This document shows, piece by piece, positions 1-38,676 of a DNA stretch of 38,676 nt; the stretch's first letter is position 1, and every line of letters begins with the position of its first letter. The notes under the pieces were generated by a model. The model worked only from the letters and a program-made list of their open reading frames with translations, was not told where the DNA came from and made no database searches. Position numbers and translations under genes: made by a program. Source of the stretch: a virus; the IMG/VR virus record IMGVR_UViG_3300037321_000155, positions 1 to 38,676 of that record; one strand, written 5' to 3'.

Positions 1-110
1 AAATGTTTGCCGACATGGAGGTGAAGGACCGTATCCATAATTTAGAAATGCAGCTGAAAGGGGTCAAGCCTCAAGGATCGGAGTTTGATTGTGTGGGCTG
101 TGGGAGTTGA
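1..110 (+). pseudogene. 3' part of the CVGCGS-tail small protein gene (cut by window start)
   Basis: This is the last part of the 58-aa gene that is complete at 37697-37873; bases 1-127 are identical to 37764-37890. The reading frame enters at codon position 2 and ends at TGA 108-110 with the C-terminus DCVGCGS. If the genome is circular, as the repeat suggests, the gene is not broken in the phage and the truncation is only the end of the contig. Function unknown; see the full copy. Confidence 0.75.
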
Positions 111-123
111 AAGATGGTCCGGT

Positions 124-170
124 AACGATGGTAATATGTGGCGTTTTTTCTATGCCATATATTACGTGTT
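124..170 (+). other. attC-like recombination site 1 (upstream boundary of methyltransferase A cassette)
   Basis: The site reads AAC (124-126), a 6-base spacer, stem arm AATATGTGGC (133-142), an 11-base loop, stem arm GCCATATATT (154-163), a 4-base spacer and GTT (168-170). AAC pairs with GTT, and the long arms pair except for one internal G/T. This is the layout of an integron attC site: outer AAC/GTT box, unpaired spacer, inner arm with a non-paired base, variable loop. The last bases, GTTAGGT (168-174), match the integron core consensus GTTRRRY. The AAC is also where the 127-bp repeat ends and the two versions of the locus diverge. Classification as attC is inference; no integrase is visible in the window. 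Confidence 0.6.
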
Positions 171-208
171 AGGTGGCTGTAAAATAAAAAAATAGGGAGG
201 CAAAAAAA

Positions 209-835
209 ATGATTAAAATAACGAATGAAGATAATATGGAACTAATGGCACGATACGAAGATAACTACTTTGATTTGGCTATTGTTGACCCACCTTATGG
301 GATTGGAGCAAACAAAATGACGTTAGGGAATGGGAAAAAGAAAATATATAGAGGTATTGAAGATTGGGACTCTAAAATACCAGACAAAGAATACTTTGAT
401 GAATTATTTAGAGTAAGTAAAAATCAAATTGTTTGGGGTGGGAACTATATGACAGAATATTTAAAACCTACTTCGGCTTGGTTATTTTGGGATAAAGGAA
501 CTGGGGATAATGATTTTGCAGATGGTGAATTGGCTTGGACTTCTTTTGATGGTGCATTGCGTAAAATATCTAAAAGTTGGGTTGGTGCAAATGCTAAAGA
601 TGGACTTGAAAGAATACATCCAACACAAAAGCCAGTGTATTTGTATAGATGGATATTAGACAGGTTTGGCAAGGATGGATTAAAAATATTAGATACGCAT
701 TTAGGAAGCGGAAGTATAGCGATTGCTTGCCACGAAGAAAAGTTTGATTTAACTGCCTGTGAACGTGATACAGAATATTATAATAAAGCAATGAAATGGC
801 TGAGAGAGACACAAATGCAAACCAAATTGTTTTGA
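209..835 (+). CDS. Orphan DNA methyltransferase A (beta-class N6-adenine/N4-cytosine type)
   Basis: A 208-aa methyltransferase that would transfer a methyl group from S-adenosylmethionine to an exocyclic amino group of A or C in DNA. The catalytic motif IV, DPPY, is at residues 27-30. The AdoMet-binding motif I variant DTHLGSGS is at about 162-169, after HPTQKP. Motif IV before motif I is the beta-class order. Length is typical of short phage methyltransferases, and no restriction partner lies nearby, so protection of phage DNA from host restriction is the likely role (inference). ATG 209 follows a good ribosome binding site (AGGGAGG) and an A-rich leader. The gene lies in a cassette-like unit bounded by AAC at 124-126 and 877-879. 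Its AT-rich codon use differs from the late genes. A homologous but clearly different enzyme is encoded at 37945-38640. Confidence 0.88.
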   Translation: MIKITNEDNMELMARYEDNYFDLAIVDPPYGIGANKMTLGNGKKKIYRGIEDWDSKIPDKEYFDELFRVSKNQIVWGGNYMTEYLKPTSAWLFWDKGTGDNDFADGELAWTSFDGALRKISKSWVGANAKDGLERIHPTQKPVYLYRWILDRFGKDGLKILDTHLGSGSIAIACHEEKFDLTACERDTEYYNKAMKWLRETQMQTKLF

Positions 836-876
836 AAAAACAAAAGTGCGGTGGGATTTTTTATTTTATTGCACCT

Positions 877-943
877 AACACCGATATATACGCAATGCGT
901 ATATATCCCTGCTGAAAAATCGAAATTCAAAACCAATAGAAAG
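877..943 (+). repeat. R2 repeat, copy 1: cassette boundary with a perfect palindrome
   Basis: These 67 bases are identical to 37562-37628. The identity begins exactly at an AAC triplet; upstream of it the two copies have different genes. From 883 to 907 there is an inverted repeat with 12-base arms around a single A (arm GATATATACGCA). The layout AAC, 3 bases, stem, stem, 3 bases, GCT mirrors the other attC-like sites, although GTT is replaced by GCT. The 7 bases ACCTAAC at 873-879 fit the integron inverse core RYYYAAC and complement GTTAGGT at 168-174, the start of this cassette. Confidence 0.7.
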
Positions 944-956
944 CAACTATACCACC

Positions 957-997
957 AAGCTTGAAGCCATCATCTCCGATGGCTTCAAGCTTTTTTT
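957..997 (+). terminator. Strong intrinsic terminator
   Basis: A perfect 15-bp stem (957-971 with 978-992, arm AAGCTTGAAGCCATC), a 6-base loop and a run of seven T. It closes the accessory cassette locus before the late region. The second R2 copy has a degraded version of the stem near 37653-37677 that lacks the T run, so read-through is more likely there. Confidence 0.9.
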
Positions 998-2704: not shown

Positions 2705-4311
2705 GCACTTGGACCGAGGTAGTTACCTATATTAAGACCCAGCTAAGGCCGGGCGTATTGGGCAATACCAATGTGCAAAAAATACTGAATTCGGTGCTTG
2801 CGGTAATCCAGCAGATCAATGCGGGAGACTACACGCCCAGCAGTGATTTTGTGTGGAACCCTGAATCATCTTACTCGGCAACTATACAGCCGGTACTGTG
2901 GCAGGATCAATGGCTGGTATCGAATATCGGAGACAATCTAGGCAATGTACCGATCAGCACATCGGGAGTGCTTCATCCGTCTTGGCGGATTATCGGAAGC
3001 AGTGCCGGATCAGGCATCCGTATTTGGGAGGCTATCGTATATCCCAATTCGCTGGAACTAGTCTACGAATCAGGTCAGCTGTACTACCTGAATAGAAGCG
3101 AGGTAGGCCTAGACCCATTTGTATCAATAGACTTTTCCGTAGAGCTATCGGAGGGAAAGTGGGTGGCTTTTTTGGAGATCATGGATCACAATCAGCTGGA
3201 AGGAATTCAGGGTGGTATTGAGGGAGAAAGGTATCATTTGACCTTGGCGGAAAAAAATTCTATTGGGGCGGGGGGTAATAATCCAAATGCAGTCCATTAT
3301 AATGTAGCAGATGGAAAAAATGCAACAGAAAGGCAACAAGCCAGATCTAATTTATTTTTAGAGACGGGCTTACCTCAAGTTCATGTTATAGTTGGAACAA
3401 ATGTATCTATACCTACCAGAACCTCTAATAGCATAGTCATAACCGATGGAACAGCAACTTTCAATCTAGTGGCAATGCAAGCGGGTCTTGATACTGAGGC
3501 AGTAACTATATATAATAGAACTATATATAATTGTCAGGTTAATAACGAATCAGGACCTATAGCATATGATAGATTTTCAATAGGAAGTACACTAGTAATA
3601 TTACCAGGCGGATCGTTTCGGGTGATTTACGATGCCTCTATAAGTAGGTGGATTTTTGATAATGCGCTACTAAGGGATGGTGACACAACGAAAAGAGGCA
3701 ATATTAATATGTTTGGAAATATTAATTTTCCAAGTGGATCCAATCCGGGAGCTAGACAGTTCTTTTTAAATTCGTCAGGATCAATCTCATTTAGGATAGC
3801 TTTTAAGGGGGCGGAGTTTTTTCAAGCCACTACAAATGGGATATTCTCAACACGGAGTTACGATATTTATGTTGGGGGGGATCTAGGTGCTGGCGGGCCA
3901 ACTGGGCTAGTTCGTGTTTTTAGGGCCGGAACTGATGGAAAGGTTTTTCATAGTAGATCTTCGGATGGAACTGAATCTATAAGACGAGATGAACAAAGGC
4001 TTTTCTATGTTAGAACTATAACGACAGTAGGTACGATAAACAGCCTAGTATTGCAGAATGGAATATTTAACTATCGATTTACGTCAGCTACTTCAATCAC
4101 AGGTTTTAATCCCGATGATATTGGTCAGTCTATTATTATTCAAAATGCTTCTAGCGGTACATTAACACTGGTTCACGAAAGCAGTCTAAGTATTGGAGGT
4201 ATGAGAATAAGGATTATAGGTGGGTCTGATCTAGTTATTCCAATCGAGGGAAAAGTCACTTTGATCTATGTCACAGAAAACCGATGGGAACTATTATGTA
4301 AAAACTTCTAA
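2701..4311 (+). CDS. Tail fibre / receptor-binding protein
   Basis: A 536-aa protein. Residues 1-180 form an N-terminal attachment region with a GC content like the neighbouring genes. A block with GIEGERYHLTLAEKN at about residues 170-185 is typical of phage fibres. The rest is beta-strand rich, with polar and glycine-rich turns and a phage fibre-like C-terminus. From about 3250 onward the DNA becomes markedly richer in A+T, so the distal part was probably acquired separately; distal tips usually set host range. Membrane and signal sequences are absent. Overlap with the upstream stop suggests translational coupling. Confidence 0.8.
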   Translation: MSTWTEVVTYIKTQLRPGVLGNTNVQKILNSVLAVIQQINAGDYTPSSDFVWNPESSYSATIQPVLWQDQWLVSNIGDNLGNVPISTSGVLHPSWRIIGSSAGSGIRIWEAIVYPNSLELVYESGQLYYLNRSEVGLDPFVSIDFSVELSEGKWVAFLEIMDHNQLEGIQGGIEGERYHLTLAEKNSIGAGGNNPNAVHYNVADGKNATERQQARSNLFLETGLPQVHVIVGTNVSIPTRTSNSIVITDGTATFNLVAMQAGLDTEAVTIYNRTIYNCQVNNESGPIAYDRFSIGSTLVILPGGSFRVIYDASISRWIFDNALLRDGDTTKRGNINMFGNINFPSGSNPGARQFFLNSSGSISFRIAFKGAEFFQATTNGIFSTRSYDIYVGGDLGAGGPTGLVRVFRAGTDGKVFHSRSSDGTESIRRDEQRLFYVRTITTVGTINSLVLQNGIFNYRFTSATSITGFNPDDIGQSIIIQNASSGTLTLVHESSLSIGGMRIRIIGGSDLVIPIEGKVTLIYVTENRWELLCKNF

Positions 4312-4421: not shown

Positions 4422-4457
4422 TGTCCTTTTCCACTAATCTAAGTCATAGTATATTCA
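4422..4457 (+). promoter_or_regulatory. Late promoter P2 (TGTCCTTTT - N19 - TATATTCA)
   Basis: TGTCCTTTT at 4422-4430, 19 bases, TATATTCA at 4450-4457, then ATG 4462 after four bases. It lies in the 150-base gap after the fibre gene. The rest of the gap (4312-4421) shows no gene and no convincing terminator. Confidence 0.55.
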
Positions 4458-4461
4458 ACTC

Positions 4462-4788
4462 ATGCCAGCATACCTCATCAAAAAACGTCACACGATCACC
4501 CGTAAATCTGGGGACAGCTCCGAGATTGTATTCACGATACCAGCCACGCATCCGATGCAGCCGGGCGTGTTGCTTCGATTTGGAATTGCTGATGGAAATC
4601 GGATATTCCTACTGAAGAACATCGCAGACATGACTGTGGATGGACAGCAAGTCAGGGTACCACTAGACAAGATCGACCTTAAGGGAAGAAGTGGAAGATC
4701 CGACTGGGAGCTGGAGTACACGGGAATTACCGGACTGGCCACCACCCTTGGAAATGGAGATTTCAACATCCTAAAAGAACTGATATGA
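4462..4788 (+). CDS. Small late protein of unknown function (fibre-region)
   Basis: A 108-aa protein starting at ATG 4462, just behind late promoter P2. It has alternating hydrophobic and charged residues with several glycines, fits a small beta-sandwich, and has no signal or membrane segment. An upstream in-frame extension is not supported because the start would fall inside the promoter. The stop overlaps the next start (ATATGA), so it is probably co-translated with the alanine-rich protein that follows. The place between two fibre genes suggests a tail or baseplate accessory protein, but nothing in the sequence proves it. Confidence 0.65.
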   Translation: MPAYLIKKRHTITRKSGDSSEIVFTIPATHPMQPGVLLRFGIADGNRIFLLKNIADMTVDGQQVRVPLDKIDLKGRSGRSDWELEYTGITGLATTLGNGDFNILKELI

Positions 4789-5396
4789 ATCCGATTATTC
4801 GAGAACTACTGATCGAAGAGCCTATTAAGCTAAGTCCTGAAGGACAGCAAGCGGTGATATCTGCCTATGATATAGCCGTGAAGAATGGATTTGTAGGGAC
4901 TGAGCTGGAGTGGCTACAGACCTTGCAATTCATTCAATCACCTATCACCGGCGAGGTACTTGCCGCCGCCCAAGCCGCAGCTGCATCCGCTCTCGCTGCG
5001 GGAGATTCAGAGCAGGTAGCTATTGAAAAAGCAGCGCAAACGGCGGAGGATGCAGCGGAAGCACTTGCTTCAAAACAGGCTTCTGAAAGTGCCGCTACTG
5101 CTTCGGAGGGCTTTGCTACGGACTCCAATGATTCGGCAGTTGCTTCTGAGGTTGCTAGACTAGCCAGTGTGGCAGCGCAAGGAATTGCCACTACTCAAGC
5201 GCAAAACTCAAGTACCTCTGCTGGGCAATCGGCTGAAAGTGCTGCGCAAGCATTAGCCTCAAATTTTGCATCACAAACGCTATTAGCAAATTTTTTGGAC
5301 TCCGCTATTATTTCGCTTAATAACAGAATATCACTTGACGGAGGTACAGTTGTGATTAAATTAAGATTTGTACAAGCACAATTAGATCAATTATGA
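4785..5396 (+). CDS. Alanine-rich fibre shaft protein
   Basis: A 203-aa protein. Residues 55-165 are a long run of Ala, Ser, Glu and Gln with near-heptad spacing (AAQAAAASALAAGDSEQ and similar), as in trimeric coiled-coil fibre shafts. The N-terminal 50 residues (RELLIEEPIKLSPEGQ, with GFVGTELEWLQ) resemble the collar or shaft-entry segments that phage fibres often carry. Base composition turns AT-rich near 5250, and the C-terminus belongs to the same AT-rich block as the next two genes. It probably pairs with the downstream head-spike-like protein as the foot and tip of one fibre. Confidence 0.7.
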   Translation: MNPIIRELLIEEPIKLSPEGQQAVISAYDIAVKNGFVGTELEWLQTLQFIQSPITGEVLAAAQAAAASALAAGDSEQVAIEKAAQTAEDAAEALASKQASESAATASEGFATDSNDSAVASEVARLASVAAQGIATTQAQNSSTSAGQSAESAAQALASNFASQTLLANFLDSAIISLNNRISLDGGTVVIKLRFVQAQLDQL

Positions 5397-6238
5397 GCAA
5401 ACCTTCATTAGCATTAATCCCAACGGCTTACAAAGCTGGTAAATTATATTCTGTACTTCGTGAAGACGGCAGTGGTGATTTTGATGTATCACGAAATGGT
5501 ACAGGTACATTTATAGGTCAAGATGGACTGATTAAAACTGCATTGGCAAATGAACCACGATTTGAGTATAATTATGACGGTACTTTTAAAGGAATATTGG
5601 TTGAACCTGCTGCTACTAATTTACCGACGAGAAGTTTATATTTTGAAGATCCTTGGATTATTCTAGGAGATAGAATTATGAGAACTTTTAATAATGGAAT
5701 AGCGCCTGATGGAACATTAACCGCAACAAGATTTACAAGGTCGATAGAAGGGTCTTATTTATTAAGGAATGTGTTTACAGTACAACCTGTTGCTGGACAA
5801 ACTTATACTTATTCAGTTTGGGCTAAAGCAATTGAAAGATCAATTGATATTAATTTAGATATATCAGACTTTGGGAAGACGTTTTTTACTGTAACTCCCG
5901 CTGAAGGATGGAAAAGAATTTCTGCAACTTTTACATTTGATATTAATAGAAGTACTAGAAATAATGAGTTTTTTGATTTAGATGTTAGAGACCTCCTTTT
6001 AAATGAATCACACTACCTTTGGGGAGCACAGGTTGAAGTAGGTACAGTTGCAACTTCATACATTCCAACATTTGCTTCACAGGTTACAAGACCTGCTGAT
6101 GTTATGACTGTAATTGTCCCTTTGAGCGCAACGCAAGTAAGCTACATTTTGAACGGAAATACAGTTACACAAAGTGTTATAGGAGGTTCTACTTTTACGC
6201 TTCCAAACGGTCATATTACTCAACTTACAATGGATTAA
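5393..6238 (+). CDS. Fibre tip / carbohydrate-binding head-spike-like protein
   Basis: A 281-aa protein. Residues 55-75 contain the ILVEPAATNLPTRS signature, followed at 100-110 by APDGTLTATRFT and at about 135-150 by YTYSVWAKA. The order is typical of the phage spike/fibre domain related to carbohydrate-binding modules. WGAQVEVGTVATSYIPTF at about 215-232 completes that fold. It probably binds a surface sugar on the host cell. The gene is AT-rich compared with the capsid genes and starts inside the stop codon of the shaft gene (ATGA overlap), so it seems to be part of an exchangeable receptor-binding module. Confidence 0.78.
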   Translation: MSKPSLALIPTAYKAGKLYSVLREDGSGDFDVSRNGTGTFIGQDGLIKTALANEPRFEYNYDGTFKGILVEPAATNLPTRSLYFEDPWIILGDRIMRTFNNGIAPDGTLTATRFTRSIEGSYLLRNVFTVQPVAGQTYTYSVWAKAIERSIDINLDISDFGKTFFTVTPAEGWKRISATFTFDINRSTRNNEFFDLDVRDLLLNESHYLWGAQVEVGTVATSYIPTFASQVTRPADVMTVIVPLSATQVSYILNGNTVTQSVIGGSTFTLPNGHITQLTMD

Positions 6239-26682: not shown

Positions 26683-26693
26683 TTTTTTAAATG

Positions 26694-26739
26694 AAAGTAT
26701 TAAAATAAATATCTATATAAATATTTGTTTTAATACTTT
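26694..26739 (+). terminator. AT-rich inverted repeat after the tape measure gene
   Basis: Perfect 12-base arms (AAAGTATTAAAA, 26694-26705, with 26728-26739), extended inward by a further seven pairs with one G-T. The T-rich end makes it a likely end of the late transcript, and it overlaps the -33 box of the next promoter. Confidence 0.6.
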
Positions 26740-26754
26740 TATTCGCTATATTTA
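26724..26754 (+). promoter_or_regulatory. Host-like promoter of the moron genes
   Basis: TTTG at 26724-26727, 19 bases, and TATATTTA at 26747-26754. The stretch around the -7 box (TTCGCTATATTTATATCA) is nearly the same as at 36633-36650. The late TGTCC element is missing, so host polymerase could express the genes in a lysogen. Confidence 0.65.
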
Positions 26755-32652: not shown

Positions 32653-35600
32653 CCGAATCCTACAAGTACGCCTTAGAAACAGGATCTCGGAAGTATCACT
32701 GCCCGGGATGCACCAAGAAGACGCTGGTCAGATATGTATTCACCGGAACCAAAGACTATGCAGGGGAGGAATTTGGGAGATGCGATCGGGAAAATAACTG
32801 TGGGTATCATCGGGTCCCAGGCAACGATATTGCCCAGCCCCTCAACCCCAAAATTAAACAAAAACTCCCGGCGCCAACTTTGCTTGTGCCAAGTGAAGAT
32901 TTTCTCAAAAAAGTCAGCACTACTACAGCTCCTAACTTTCAGAACTTCTGCACCTCCAAACTGGGAATCTCTACCGACCATCTGAAAAGGTGGGGAGTAG
33001 GAGGACACTGGAAGTTCACTGCCTTCATTCTGGCAACTAGAAAAGAGGTCGTCAATGTGAAATTTGTCGCCTACACGCCCGAGGGCAAGCGGGATAAAAC
33101 TGAGGGGACAGCGGGCGCACCTAAATTCACACCTTATTACCTGGGTAGAGCCTACCTGCGATCTCAGAAAATAGAAACCGATAATGCCCGACTGGAAGAC
33201 TGGCAGGATTATTTCAAATTTGCCCGCTGCTTCTATGGCGAGCACCTCTGGGATGCTGATAAGAATACCTGCATTGTGGAATCGGAGAAAACAGCGGTGA
33301 TTGCTGCCTTCTTTTTCCCGCAATACAACTGGCTGGCTACCGGTGGAAATAACGGGATGACCTTTGAGCAGTTTTCACTCTTCAACGGCTATCGCAATCG
33401 GATTTGGAATATCGTGGACAACGATACCGCAGGCTTTGCCAAGTCCAAGACTATGCAGTGGCTGGATAAGATGGCCGAGATGCGGGATAATCCGGAAGAA
33501 ATACTTTCGGTGAATCTACTCGAAGGCCGTCCTGCCGGTTGGGACTTGGCAGATGCCATCATCTTTGATGAGTTCAGAGATCCAAAAGCTTTCTCCCAAA
33601 AACTAGCCTTAGCGATCGACTGCCGGAAAAAGATCGTGGTGGATCAGCAATCAGGCGAATGGACTATTGAAGATAAGGTGAAAGTATCGGAGGCGAATGC
33701 CAAGGAACTTGCTAGAGCAAAGCAGGTAGCGGATCGGATCTTTGAAGGAAAGGTCAATCTCATTCTCATTCTCAATTCCGAAATAGATTCAATCGAGTTG
33801 GCGAAATCCACCGCCTATTTTGGGAAAGACGGAGTGCACCTATTGGTCAAAATATATGAGGCTTCCGGACTTGAAAAAGAAGAAGCCGAGGATGTCTTTG
33901 AAACCGCAAGGATGCATCCTCACACCAGCGGGAAATATTTCTTCAAGGTGGCCAAAGATGCAGGCGTGGAAACCCGCTACATCAAAACCGCTCGGTCGGA
34001 AGCTGCTCAGGGTGCTGATGGAATTGACTCACACGACTGGATCATTACTTGGCCTGATGATCTGGAAGAAAAGCCCGACTTTGATCAGTCGAAGTACAAG
34101 GAGCAAGTATTCAATTATTCATTCATCGAGCATAAGAATTGTATCTGGTATGCGACTTTCAATAATAATACACGAGAAATAGGGTTTTTCAAAATCTCCA
34201 ATTTCAGTATCCGGCCATTGTATCTGATCAAATCCAAGACTGATCCCAAGCGACTCTTTGAAATCAAGAATATCTTTGGAGTGAAATACATCCTCGACAT
34301 TCCGGCAAAGGCGCTGGTCAGTATGACCGAATTTCAGGTATTCTGCGAGAGTCACGGCAATTTCCTCTTTGAAGGCAGCAAGCAGCAATTCACCAAAATC
34401 AAGCGCAAACTCTACGATGAGACCAAGGATGCCGAAGAAGTGAAAATGCTTGGATGGCAGGATGAGGGATTCTACGCCTTTGCCAATGGCGCCTTTGAGG
34501 ACAAATTCACCAAGGTGGACGAATATGGAATCATCAAGCACCTGATTGGAAAGAATGAGCATGAAGCAGAAGAGAAGTATTTCTTCATCCCGGCAATGTC
34601 GAGCATCTACAAGGATGAGAAAGATCAGTACGACTCGGAAAAGAAATTCGTCTATGTGCCCAGACCTAATGTGAAATTTTCCGATTGGGCGCAGCTGTTC
34701 TTTGAGACCTATGGGGAGAATGGCGTGATCGGGATGAGCTTCTACATCTCCAGTCTTTTTCGAGATATGATCTACAGCAGGTTCAAGTTCTTTCCACATC
34801 TATTTCATTTTGGCCCACCTGGCACCGGAAAGTCTACGATGTGCTGGAGCATCCAATACATGTTTGGCCTCGAGCGGAAACCGTTCATGCTCAATGCAGG
34901 TACGGCGGTGGGTTTTCACCGGACCTTTGCACAGTTTCGAAATGCTGTGGTATGGTTTGATGAGTATAACAACTCAATCGAATTCAAGCGGGTGCAGGAT
35001 CTCAAGTCCGCCTACGATGGAGCCGGTCACGTGAAGGGTGAATGGTCTGCCTCGGGTGGATCGAGTAACAAGACGACCACGACACCGGTGGAATCTGCCT
35101 GTAATATCTCGGGGCAGGAACTTCCAATCGCAGACAATGCGCTATTCAAACGCTGCATCCTGCTGCAATACTACCAGACCATATTTTCAGATCCGGAAAA
35201 GGCGCAGCTTACCAAGTTGCAAAAGCTTCAGGAAAAAGGGCTCAGCCACATTACCGGAGCACTGACGATATTTCGCAAGAAAATGGAAGCGGACTATTTT
35301 CGGGTGTTTGACGAGGTGGAAAAGGAAATCATCCAAGCCCTGGACGGGGATCCTACCATCGAAAGCAGAATAATCAAAAACATGGCTGTAGCTGCTACCA
35401 CTTTCAAAGTGCTGAAGGATGAACTGCCGTGGCCTTGGAACTGGCAAAAGATGCTCGATGTGATGGTGAAGAACATCAAATCCCAAAATGCGCTGATCTC
35501 CAATGCGAAGGAAACAAACCAATTCTGGGACGCGGTGGAATATTGCATCTCTGAAGGAGAGCTGAATAATCTCGAAGACTTCAAGGTGGAGCACAACAAC

Positions 35601-35960
35601 TCGGTGAAGGTGATGCTCGATCGGAAGTCTGTGGAAAAGAATCTGGGTACGGTGAAGAAAGTACTCTACATCCGAATAGCCACCGCTCACCCGAAATACA
35701 TGGAGGCACTGCGGAAGCAGGGTGAAAAGAAGGGCATGGACAAAGGTTCGCTTGCGCACTACCTGACCCATGCACCAGGATTCATCGGGATGGTGGGGAG
35801 TACTCGCTTCAAGAATGGCGAGAAAAGCTTCACGAGTTCGGCCTATGCTTTTGAGTATAAGTACCTGGAAGATCAGGGCTACAACTTTGACCGGGAGGAT
35901 GAGGAGGCCAATCCGGACGAGCCAGTATTCAAGGAAAGACCTGCCGGAGAACCATTTTAA
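32649..35960 (+). CDS. Primase-helicase (zinc finger, Toprim, AAA+ helicase)
   Basis: An 1103-aa replication protein. A zinc-binding N-terminus has Cys18, Cys21, Cys45 and Cys51 (GRCDRENNCGYH), of the type found in DUF6371/Toprim proteins of Bacteroidota. A Toprim-like part follows, with CIVESEKTA at 208-216 and VDNDTAG at 256-262. The C-terminal helicase has Walker A GPPGTGKS at 722-729 and Walker B VVWFDEYN (Asp771, Glu772). It would unwind the phage origin and prime synthesis; no phage DNA polymerase is encoded, so host polymerase is needed. It is the last and largest early gene, with a terminator behind it. Confidence 0.85.
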   Translation: MTESYKYALETGSRKYHCPGCTKKTLVRYVFTGTKDYAGEEFGRCDRENNCGYHRVPGNDIAQPLNPKIKQKLPAPTLLVPSEDFLKKVSTTTAPNFQNFCTSKLGISTDHLKRWGVGGHWKFTAFILATRKEVVNVKFVAYTPEGKRDKTEGTAGAPKFTPYYLGRAYLRSQKIETDNARLEDWQDYFKFARCFYGEHLWDADKNTCIVESEKTAVIAAFFFPQYNWLATGGNNGMTFEQFSLFNGYRNRIWNIVDNDTAGFAKSKTMQWLDKMAEMRDNPEEILSVNLLEGRPAGWDLADAIIFDEFRDPKAFSQKLALAIDCRKKIVVDQQSGEWTIEDKVKVSEANAKELARAKQVADRIFEGKVNLILILNSEIDSIELAKSTAYFGKDGVHLLVKIYEASGLEKEEAEDVFETARMHPHTSGKYFFKVAKDAGVETRYIKTARSEAAQGADGIDSHDWIITWPDDLEEKPDFDQSKYKEQVFNYSFIEHKNCIWYATFNNNTREIGFFKISNFSIRPLYLIKSKTDPKRLFEIKNIFGVKYILDIPAKALVSMTEFQVFCESHGNFLFEGSKQQFTKIKRKLYDETKDAEEVKMLGWQDEGFYAFANGAFEDKFTKVDEYGIIKHLIGKNEHEAEEKYFFIPAMSSIYKDEKDQYDSEKKFVYVPRPNVKFSDWAQLFFETYGENGVIGMSFYISSLFRDMIYSRFKFFPHLFHFGPPGTGKSTMCWSIQYMFGLERKPFMLNAGTAVGFHRTFAQFRNAVVWFDEYNNSIEFKRVQDLKSAYDGAGHVKGEWSASGGSSNKTTTTPVESACNISGQELPIADNALFKRCILLQYYQTIFSDPEKAQLTKLQKLQEKGLSHITGALTIFRKKMEADYFRVFDEVEKEIIQALDGDPTIESRIIKNMAVAATTFKVLKDELPWPWNWQKMLDVMVKNIKSQNALISNAKETNQFWDAVEYCISEGELNNLEDFKVEHNNSVKVMLDRKSVEKNLGTVKKVLYIRIATAHPKYMEALRKQGEKKGMDKGSLAHYLTHAPGFIGMVGSTRFKNGEKSFTSSAYAFEYKYLEDQGYNFDREDEEANPDEPVFKERPAGEPF

Positions 35961-36554: not shown

Positions 36555-36614
36555 TTGTATTTCTCACTAATTATAAGAACTTGAAAAAATAAATTAAAAA
36601 TACTTTGAAAAAAG

Positions 36615-36645
36615 TTTACAAGTATCAAAATAATTCGTATATTTA
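36615..36645 (+). promoter_or_regulatory. Host-like promoter of the accessory genes
   Basis: TTTA at 36615-36618, 19 bases, TATATTTA at 36638-36645, closely similar to the promoter at 26724-26754. It would express the AT-rich accessory genes from 36675 on. Confidence 0.6.
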
Positions 36646-36674
36646 TATCAGATAACAACTAAAAAAACAAAAAA

Positions 36675-36929
36675 ATGAGAAATTTTATATCAAATAACGA
36701 AGCAAAAAAATTAGCTGAAAAAATCGCAAATACTACACAAGTATTTTTTACAAATGAAGGATTAGAAATTATTTTTACTTCTGAAACAAAAAATCAAAAA
36801 GAAATAGCTGGAAATTTAAAAGCGGTTTTTTCAGATGTGAAAATAAAAGGCAGAAGAGTTCAAAGTATAGTGATTAACAGAATAAGCCAAGTGATAAATG
36901 GAATTAGAATTACAGAAGTTACATACTAA
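36675..36929 (+). CDS. AT-rich accessory protein of unknown function
   Basis: An 84-aa protein with alternating helical and beta pattern (KLAEKIANTTQVFFTNEG, then VIKGRRV-like strand VKIKGRRVQSIVI). It is very AT-rich compared with the early and late operons, so it is probably a recent acquisition. It has an A-rich leader and overlaps the next ORF by 32 bases. Confidence 0.6.
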   Translation: MRNFISNNEAKKLAEKIANTTQVFFTNEGLEIIFTSETKNQKEIAGNLKAVFSDVKIKGRRVQSIVINRISQVINGIRITEVTY

Positions 36930-37092
36930 ACTTAAAAAAATTGAAACAGAGCTTTCTAAGTGTAGAGGCTCTGTTTTAGAAGATGGGTGGCAAACTCAGC
37001 GTTACGCAAAAAAAATGAGAAAATGGGACTATTATGCTGAAGAAAAAAACAAAATCAGAGAACAAATTAACACCCTCGAAAGTAGGCGGTAA
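36898..37092 (+). CDS. AT-rich accessory protein, coiled-coil
   Basis: A 64-aa, charged helical protein (LHTKLKKIETELSKC at about 8-22). It overlaps both the preceding gene and, by 59 bases, the next one; it is likely translated by coupling. No recognised family. Confidence 0.5.
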   Translation: MELELQKLHTKLKKIETELSKCRGSVLEDGWQTQRYAKKMRKWDYYAEEKNKIREQINTLESRR

Positions 37093-37222
37093 GCGTATTG
37101 GTTCTGGGCGTAAAAAAGTGGATTATGAAACTAAAATAATTTCCTTTCGTGTTCGTATAGAATTTGTGGAACAGATTAAAAAGTTGGTCAAAGATGCTGT
37201 TTCTGGGTGGTCGGTAAAATAG
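37034..37222 (+). CDS. Small basic protein, ribbon-helix-helix-like
   Basis: A 62-aa basic protein with KVGGKRIGSGRKKVDYETK followed by ISFRVRIEFVEQIKKLVKD. The pattern is common in small phage and plasmid DNA-binding proteins with a basic tail and an RHH-like core. It ends five bases before the GCT/AAC of attC-like site 3. An overlap of 59 bases with the preceding gene makes the start uncertain. Confidence 0.5.
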   Translation: MLKKKTKSENKLTPSKVGGKRIGSGRKKVDYETKIISFRVRIEFVEQIKKLVKDAVSGWSVK

Positions 37223-37227
37223 CAGCT

Positions 37228-37287
37228 AACGAATTGTATATGATTAAGCGATAGCGACCCTTTTTAGGGTTAATTATATACGGTGTT
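37228..37287 (+). other. attC-like recombination site 3
   Basis: AAC (37228-37230), 5 bases, arm GTATATGATTAA (37236-37247), a 22-base loop, arm TTAATTATATAC (37270-37281), 3 bases, GTT (37285-37287). The arms pair perfectly except for one central G/T. Site 1 has the same layout and the same type of internal G/T. The cassette behind it starts GTTGTGG and ends with a complementary CAACACCG at 37561-37568. Confidence 0.6.
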
Positions 37288-37561: not shown

Positions 37562-37628
37562 AACACCGATATATACGCAATGCGTATATATCCCTGCTGA
37601 AAAATCGAAATTCAAAACCAATAGAAAG
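37562..37628 (+). repeat. R2 repeat, copy 2
   Basis: Identical to 877-943 over 67 bases from the AAC on, including the 25-base palindrome at 37568-37592. The following stem-loop (about 37653-37677) is a degraded version of the terminator at 957-997. Confidence 0.75.
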
Positions 37629-37696
37629 TAACTATAACACCACAGCTTGAAGCCATCATCCCAGATGGTTTCAAGCAACTAATCAACTAACTTATA

Positions 37697-37873
37697 ATGA
37701 CTGAAAATCAGAAAAACCAATTACTCGAAAAAATCGAAGTCTTGAAAGCTTCGCTGGTAGGTGAAATGTTTGCCGACATGGAGGTGAAGGACCGTATCCA
37801 TAATTTAGAAATGCAGCTGAAAGGGGTCAAGCCTCAAGGATCGGAGTTTGATTGTGTGGGCTGTGGGAGTTGA
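37697..37873 (+). CDS. 58-aa protein with CVGCGS C-terminus (full copy)
   Basis: MTENQKNQLLEKIEVLK begins a single charged helix. The end EFDCVGCGS carries a CxxC motif that could bind metal or be redox active. Small proteins with this terminal motif occur in Bacteroidota phages, from my memory, without known function. The gene lies between R2 copy 2 and the branch point where the cassette region varies. Bases 37764-37873 are repeated at the window start. Confidence 0.65.
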   Translation: MTENQKNQLLEKIEVLKASLVGEMFADMEVKDRIHNLEMQLKGVKPQGSEFDCVGCGS

Positions 37874-37890
37874 AAGATGGTCCGGTAACG
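37764..37890 (+). repeat. 127-bp exact repeat of the window start (1-127)
   Basis: The sequence is identical to bases 1-127, and the copies diverge at the next base (A at 128, G at 37891). The length equals the largest k-mer size of common de Bruijn assemblers. The repeat is therefore best explained by a circular genome in which the contig returns to its own start and then takes a second path. A true duplication remains possible. Confidence 0.85.
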
Positions 37891-37912
37891 GAATGCAGCT
37901 AACCGAAGTTGG
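37886..37912 (+). repeat. 27-bp direct repeat flanking methyltransferase B, left copy
   Basis: Starts TAACGGAATGCAGCTAACCG and ends AAGTTGG. An identical copy lies at 38650-38676, the window end. AAC and GTT bracket each copy in the same order as the attC-like sites, although the inner stem is short (GCTAAC/GTTGGC around CGAA). Confidence 0.7.
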
Positions 37913-37944
37913 CGATTTTGAAACACAAAAACTATCAATAAACA

Positions 37945-38640
37945 ATGAACTTAATTAGAAGCACAAAACTACATACCACCACTGAACCGCCAATTTTGGT
38001 TAGCTGCGGTTATACGCTGCCCTTTTCGGAAGTTTATAATGAAGATTGCATTGAGGGAATGAAACGATACCCTGACAAACACTTTGATTTGGCGGTTGTT
38101 GACCCGCCATACGGAATAAACATAAATCATTCAATGGGCAGAAGAAAAGGGGATAAAAAATCAAATTATAAAAAAGCCGATTGGGATAACGAACCGCCAC
38201 CGATTGAATACTTTAATGAATTATTTAGAGTGTCTAAAAGCCAAATCGTTTGGGGTGCAAACCACTTTATTAGCCGTATGCCTTATGATAGTGCTTGCTG
38301 GCTTATGTGGGATAAAAAATTTAGCGATGAAGTCTCTTTTGCTCAATACGAAATGGCTTGGACTTCATTAGATGGAACTTGCAAAAAGTTTGATAAGCAC
38401 CCAACACAAGATAATCGAATACACCCAACTCAAAAGCCGATAACCCTTTACGATTGGATATTTAACAAATACGCTACTCAAGGAATGAAAATATTAGATA
38501 CTCATTTAGGTAGTGGCTCAAGTCAAATAAGTGCCAATAAAGCAAAATTAGAATTTATTGGTTTTGAAATTGATACCGACCACTTCAAAGCACAAAACAA
38601 ACGATATGCAGATTTCATTTCACAGACGAGGCTCTTTTAG
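37945..38640 (+). CDS. Orphan DNA methyltransferase B (beta-class N6-adenine/N4-cytosine type)
   Basis: A 231-aa enzyme with DPPY at residues 53-56 and the motif I variant DTHLGSGS at about 185-192, after HPTQKP. It is homologous to methyltransferase A (shared EYFxELFRVSKxQIVWG, AWTS, HPTQKP, ILDTHLGSGS) but clearly different elsewhere, with 25 extra residues at the N-terminus. It thus may recognise a different DNA site. A-rich leader before ATG 37945. The gene is in a 764-base unit between the two copies of the 27-bp repeat, at the same position behind the CVGCGS gene that methyltransferase A has at the other end of the contig. Confidence 0.87.
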   Translation: MNLIRSTKLHTTTEPPILVSCGYTLPFSEVYNEDCIEGMKRYPDKHFDLAVVDPPYGININHSMGRRKGDKKSNYKKADWDNEPPPIEYFNELFRVSKSQIVWGANHFISRMPYDSACWLMWDKKFSDEVSFAQYEMAWTSLDGTCKKFDKHPTQDNRIHPTQKPITLYDWIFNKYATQGMKILDTHLGSGSSQISANKAKLEFIGFEIDTDHFKAQNKRYADFISQTRLF

Positions 38641-38649
38641 GGTTGCGTA

Positions 38650-38676
38650 TAACGGAATGCAGCTAACCGAAGTTGG
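38650..38676 (+). repeat. 27-bp direct repeat flanking methyltransferase B, right copy
   Basis: Identical to 37886-37912 and runs to the last base of the window, so the true repeat may be longer. The contig ending inside the repeat suggests a second branch point where several cassettes can follow. Confidence 0.7.

Follow-up and report, generated by a model that had tools for sequence, protein, structure and literature searches.

Methyltransferase genes on probable integron-type cassettes of inverted polarity recur in unrelated phages

How could a gene cassette of integron type come to lie, and to move, in a phage genome that encodes no integron integrase? The question is raised by an IMG/VR virus record of 38,676 nt (the whole stretch analysed, hereafter 'the window'), which encodes head protease, terminase, portal, tail and primase-like genes; the phage probably infects Bacteroidota. 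An earlier note, made from the letters alone, had placed a methyltransferase gene (MTase A) of this record in an integron-like cassette. That cassette is real, but it is one of several in an array that runs from about 36.6 to 38.7 kb, resumes at 1 to 0.9 kb, and also holds a second methyltransferase (MTase B), a 73-aa ORF, a 58-aa ORF and two further attC-like sites (Table 1). We consider it quite probable that MTase A is carried by a mobile integron-type cassette, within a CALIN array mobilised in trans by an integron integrase of the host.

Table 1. Features of the cassette array in the window
Feature	Position	Strand	Remarks
X	1..127	+	end of 58-aa ORF and GGTCCGGTAACG, then cassette A
Cassette A attC-like site	124..170	-	AAC..hairpin..GTT; attC top strand = minus
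Cassette A, 753 bp	126..878	+	hairpin, then MTase A, then ACCTAA; G^TT rule, minus strand
5' core GTGTTAGGTG	166..175	+	includes GTTAGGT
MTase A, 208 aa	209..835	+	N6/N4 DNA methylase, DPPY motif
3' core CACCTAACAC	872..881	+	complement of 166-175
Y	877..990	+	AACACC, 12-bp hairpin and terminator-like hairpin; right edge of array
Promoter-like element TTTA-N19-TATATTTA	36586..36667	+	array head
Head-unit small ORFs (84, 64, 62 aa)	36675..37222	+	last resembles L045 GGKRKGAGRK protein
Cassette C attC-like site	37228..37287	-	model score 7.0
Cassette C ORF, 73 aa	37328..37549	+	without Pfam family
58-aa ORF unit, between Y and X	37697..37873	+
Cassette B attC-like site, long	37887..38011	-	cores GTATAAC/GTTATAC; -18.7 kcal/mol
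MTase B, 231 aa	37945..38640	+	PF01555 2.6e-10
TAACGGAATGCAGCTAACCGAAGTTGG	38650..38676	+	exact repeat of 37886-37912

The letters on which the earlier note relied were all confirmed: AAC (124-126), a hairpin (131-165), GTTAGGT (168-174), ACCTAAC (873-879) and the AAC that ends it (877-879). The inverted repeat is 10 nt long, and TAAAATAAAAAA and TTTTTTATTTTA lie within it; exact matches to GTGTTAGGTG occur at these two places only in the window. Complementary R''/R' cores around a hairpin, as in integron cassettes, are found in cassettes A and B. The encoded MTase A matches PF01555 (1.1e-12) and phrog_67 (1.9e-37). The hairpin folds with -8.5 kcal/mol on the + strand, which is only moderately unusual (3 of 200 shuffles were as good), and it has no clear extra-helical base. 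Inverted 10-mers with GTT at such a spacing are not above chance (6 observed, 5.3 expected); that cassette A exceeds chance follows from the comparison with other phages, and not from the inverted repeat alone. Rfam gave nothing at the gathering score, and the 63-nt site had no BLAST match in the phage collection. A circular form of cassette A would read GCACCTAAC joined to GATGGTAATATG at its A-A junction.

Positions 124-881 of the window recur in a second phage of 36.7 kb (G001; locus L016), with 99.87% identity over 758 bp, that is, with one substitution. AAC (124) is the exact start of the common block and CACCTAAC (879) its end, apart from two more bases that are probably shared by chance. 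When the whole genomes were compared, this block was the sole strong nucleotide match, the remainder being weak similarity between MTase genes. To the left of the cassette the window reads agatggtccggtAAC and L016 reads taaatggtttacAAC; to the right of CACCTAAC they read accgatatatac and actaagctaaaa. Three more families were found: M2 (785 bp, MTase) in L044, L045/L046, L047 and L048, its flanks differing on both sides among these four contexts; M3 (772 bp, MTase) in L036, L039 and L049; and M4 (68-aa ORF) in G001 and L009. Across the four families, each present in two to four unrelated contexts, every edge is AA^C, which is G^TT on the other strand, the sole exception being the left edge in L044 (AT^C). 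These are discrete units moving with the G^TTRRRY edges of integron cassettes: bounded by AA^C, hairpin first and complementary half-site last, they stand in unrelated phage flanks. Other phages keep the AAC/GTT boundaries, and MTase A, whose flanks change, is not fixed at one site, so that two observations which could have spoken against the earlier reading do not. In the backbone relatives L097-L100 an empty-array allele was not found, because the locus between primase and structural genes is filled there by other accessory genes. A shortened M3 is present in L008 (95-280), with both ends kept and most of the MTase gene gone.

In L044, the M2 cassette splits a phosphoesterase gene that comes shortly after a terminase-like gene. 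When the two flanks are joined, they give a 304-aa ORF (...EIASVHGADI/IWMGHVHE...), and a PF00149 match spans the junction (20.8 bits, slightly below the curated 21.5). The predicted empty site has no exact match in IMG/VR, so its identification relies on the restored reading frame. The target reads CCAGATG^ATATCC on the minus strand, that is, G^AT. Secondary sites of IntI1 follow a GNT or GWT-type consensus (PMC4618277), and the insertion is as expected of such a site for an integron integrase. It resembles the insertions described there in that a single cassette lies at G^AT without target duplication, and differs in that the target is a phage gene. The 5.2-kb contig carries no integron integrase in cis.

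An integrase would then have to come from elsewhere. None passed the TIGR02249 cut-off in the window or G001, nor in the further phage records with cassettes that were tested, of which some are fragments. Among 395 evenly drawn genomes of Bacteroidota species, 105 encode an integron integrase above the curated cut-off, so hosts could often provide it in trans; many of the positive genomes (L131-L173) also have attC arrays. By contrast, IntegronFinder 2.0, applied to complete genomes, reported that complete integrons are very scarce in Bacteroidetes (PMC9024848). We propose that the hairpins would fold on single-stranded phage DNA during replication, where a host integron integrase could cut at AA^C, and that cassettes may in this way be swapped between phages and bacterial arrays. 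The cassettes would be expressed from a promoter in the head cassette and by read-through from the phage, and solitary N6-adenine methyltransferases may be kept for guarding phage DNA from the restriction of the current host.

Another tyrosine recombinase, either Xer-like and supplied by the host or a phage integrase, could in principle move integron-like cassettes, and we regard this as unlikely. Candidates exist: a 217-aa tyrosine recombinase in G001, integrases in the backbone relatives G005-G008, an Xer-like recombinase inside a bacterial array (L109), and Xer-like recombinases of 300-400 aa in the cassette-bearing Bacteroidota G017-G022, which have no integron integrase above cut-off. The window, however, has no tyrosine recombinase match at all (PF00589); the G^TT and G^AT edges with R-box complementarity are the rule of integron integrases; and phage attC sites work with IntI1 (PMC9892861).

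Ordinary mosaicism, in which MTase genes would be swapped by homologous or illegitimate recombination beside terminator hairpins that merely look like attC, seems improbable. Exchange of MTases is frequent among phages, the inverted cores by themselves do not exceed chance, and the family is mostly not cassette-borne, since attC-like flanks accompany relatives of MTase A at only about 10 of 80 phage loci. Orphan phage MTases (N6_N4_Mtase, phrog_67) belong to the same protein family and have the same presumed anti-restriction role, but unlike MTase A most of them (about 70 of the 80 loci) are without attC flanks. What contradicts mosaicism is the table of shared edges, where identical AA^C boundaries recur in four families with flanks lacking homology, along with the precise insertion into a gene and the core complementarity within each unit.

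Returning to integron-type cassettes, the polarity of the units calls for attention. Classical cassettes have the hairpin after the gene, and it travels with the gene. In A, M2, M3 and M4 the travelling hairpin is the upstream one, a result that needs no model, and the downstream hairpin differs in each copy. For further sites we used an attC model combining position weights and a hairpin term, built from 36 sites upstream of Bacteroidota integrase genes, a small set; with each locus left out in turn, it gave the correct polarity in 36 of 36. This polarity-aware model was adopted since an energy-only hairpin scan, which was dropped, over-called with too many matches in coding DNA. At a score of at least 6 the model found three sites in the window, all in the array, where whole-window shuffles average 1.1; an attC-model hit, the lack of which would have spoken against the earlier note, is thus present. 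The top strand is the minus strand at all three (8.1, 7.0 and 8.7), antisense to the genes; the gene orientation scores -4.8 for cassette A (against 8.1) and -12.1 for cassette B (against 8.7). Between one site and the next, the longest ORF runs against attC in 27 of the 29 phage intervals, which are not independent as they include the related loci L045/L047/L048 and L036/L039/L049, compared to 6 of 24 intervals in integrase-bearing bacterial arrays. In the Polaribacter phage P12002L, the model places the attC sites on the + strand, opposite to the MTase genes, which the minus strand encodes. The attC therefore lies 5' of the gene, without recourse to the model in four families and by the trained model at further sites.

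The layout proposed earlier is thus of integron type, but the unit opens with its hairpin, opposite to classical cassettes. A position of attC 3' of the gene is usual in integron cassettes, not universal, and the inversion does not exclude membership, since about a quarter of the intervals in integrase-bearing arrays are also antisense. With attC 5' of the gene, the bottom strand of attC, which is the one cut, coincides with the coding strand, whereas in classical cassettes it is the other way round. Sedentary chromosomal integrons (Vibrio, Bacteroidota) share the R boxes, the hairpin, the complementary cores and the G^TT edges, whereas they have an integrase and usually a Pc in cis, and attC 3' in most cassettes (ORF along attC in 18 of 24 intervals). 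The window has no integrase, and a promoter-like element heads its array; two attC-like sites 600 nt apart (37228-37287 and 37887-38011) and a third beyond X (124-170), with no TIGR02249 match, correspond to a CALIN and not to a complete integron. In Vibrio, attC excision depends strongly on how the array is oriented with respect to replication (PMC11023631), and by analogy the phage polarity may reflect which strand is exposed.

That the arrays are classical, each gene being followed by its attC, and that their polarity was misread is very improbable. Such a reading fits phage TJE1, as well as those phage hairpins whose 5' arm has extra bases, and the attC model disagrees with the extra-helical-base criterion for TJE1 and some phage hairpins. 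The extra-helical base was rejected as a polarity test, being ambiguous across phage sites, and the ends of shared blocks were used for this reason. The upstream hairpin travels in A, M2, M3 and M4, which refutes the classical reading for these families, though not for TJE1, and the model sides with the inverted polarity. As for IS200/IS605-like or other Y1-type single-strand transposition, the hairpin at one end and the single-strand chemistry are superficial likenesses, and it can practically be set aside: elements of the IS200/IS605 type have a Y1 transposase and hairpins inside both ends, the hairpin of the unit is at the 5' end only, the mobile block has none at its right end, the two cores are mutually complementary, and G000, G001 and four further phage records gave no match to a Y1 transposase (PF01797, Y1_Tnp).

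Integron-type cassettes with genes antisense to attC would not be read from the Pc of a host integron, yet they lie in sense in the phage. The Bacteroidota promoter consensus is TTTG-N19-TATATTTG. The element at the array head is 81% identical in L045/L046, and L045 reads TTTG-N19-TATATTTG; in the window and in L045/L046 it precedes a small gene, then an ORF for a GGKRxGxGRK protein. The resemblance suggests that the head cassette bears a promoter, taking the part of Pc. The MTase B ORF starts within the loop of its attC (37945-38011), and the M2 MTase does likewise (L045 3929-3981); the 3' arm of attC would encode the first residues of both proteins.

Bacterial arrays contain related genes. 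In Flavobacterium croceum (L117) and a Cyclobacteriaceae MAG (L109), both with attC-like arrays, the relatives of MTase A (5498-6205 and 3593-4297, respectively) are the sole antisense genes, all others running along attC. For L117, the polarity was judged from the bases adjoining AAC and GTT, since only one partial site there gave any score (3.3). This is expected if phage-type cassettes were taken up by bacterial arrays, two cases being few. Bacterial genomes were rejected as a source of cassettes, MTase A being rare there (4 of 395). In L117, a D12-type MTase adjoins an HNH-domain gene, perhaps forming a restriction-modification cassette. In L109, a 376-aa Xer-like tyrosine recombinase (4444-5574) is encoded between two of the array's attC-like sites, and similar proteins of 376-397 aa occur in other Bacteroidota genomes. 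Xer-like proteins of 376-399 aa were rejected as a hidden integron integrase of Flavobacteriia, with no clear attC array beside L126-L129.

The general arrangement is already known. According to Qi et al. 2023, CALINs without integrase, with MTase cassettes, are present in the virulent phages TJE1, P12002L and PH101; five of six phage attC sites tested were active with IntI1, including P12002L attC2, and divergent attC directions were noted in P12002L (PMC9892861). The novelty that the earlier note had attached to anti-restriction cassettes in a phage without integrase is therefore lost to that publication. The likeness extends to the genes, the TJE1 MTase being 55% identical to MTase A. What differs is that the paper shows no cassette common to unrelated phages and, in the sections consulted, does not describe a gene-antisense polarity (PMC9892861), whereas here transfer is direct and the antisense polarity is the rule. 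Our literature search on inverted cassettes, or on Bacteroidota phages with attC, returned only PMC9892861 and general integron papers. Within the literature searched, four points appear to be new: direct evidence that a cassette has passed between phages otherwise unrelated, the rule that genes in these phage arrays run antisense to attC, the precise insertion at G^AT within a phage gene, and the occurrence of antisense MTase cassettes among bacterial arrays.

Bacteria are the main setting in which integron cassettes are known; as the same 753-bp unit is present in two otherwise unrelated phages, phages themselves join the cassette traffic. We give about even credence to a wider proposal, namely that Bacteroidota phages share their own pool of polarity-inverted cassettes, swapped among unrelated phages, parked in bacterial arrays, mobilised by the integron integrase of the host, and carrying anti-restriction MTases behind a cassette-borne promoter. 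The cargo recovered, in a search that began from MTase A, is what a phage would need against a new restriction system, and cassette movement is a possible route to fast turnover of orphan phage MTases. The inverted polarity predicts the recombined strand, which cassettes phages can express, and which antisense cassettes of bacterial arrays may stem from phages.

The ends of the window bear on the layout of the array. X is an exact repeat of 127 nt, a length typical of k-mer overlaps in assemblies; its identical copy at 37764-37890 leads into cassette B. G001 has an exact terminal repeat of 127 nt, i.e. it is a closed circle, and because of this same pattern we read the window as a circle of about 37.8 kb: X, cassette A, phage, cassette C, Y, 58-aa ORF, X. 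The tail of the window would then be X followed by cassette B in place of A, X being either present twice or present in two versions within the population. At the very end (38650-38676), either the end of B is joined to the start of its own hairpin, as in a tandem or circular B, or another cassette with the same hairpin follows. Y has a copy at 37562-37676 (95% over 115 nt, with an exact 67-nt repeat, 877-943 and 37562-37628); it is also found after AAC in L009 and L010, and is without a GTT partner. Relatives of the 58-aa ORF occur on six IMG/VR contigs, adjoining attC-like sites.

G001 (L174/L175) has an attC-like array of its own (34414-35713 and 125-927, in L016 orientation) in the corresponding position, ahead of the structural genes; it also has a DUF4326 gene, and its 217-aa tyrosine recombinase is encoded elsewhere. 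In the window, 54 nt between two ORFs (26690-26743) form a long imperfect palindrome that is 89% self-complementary.
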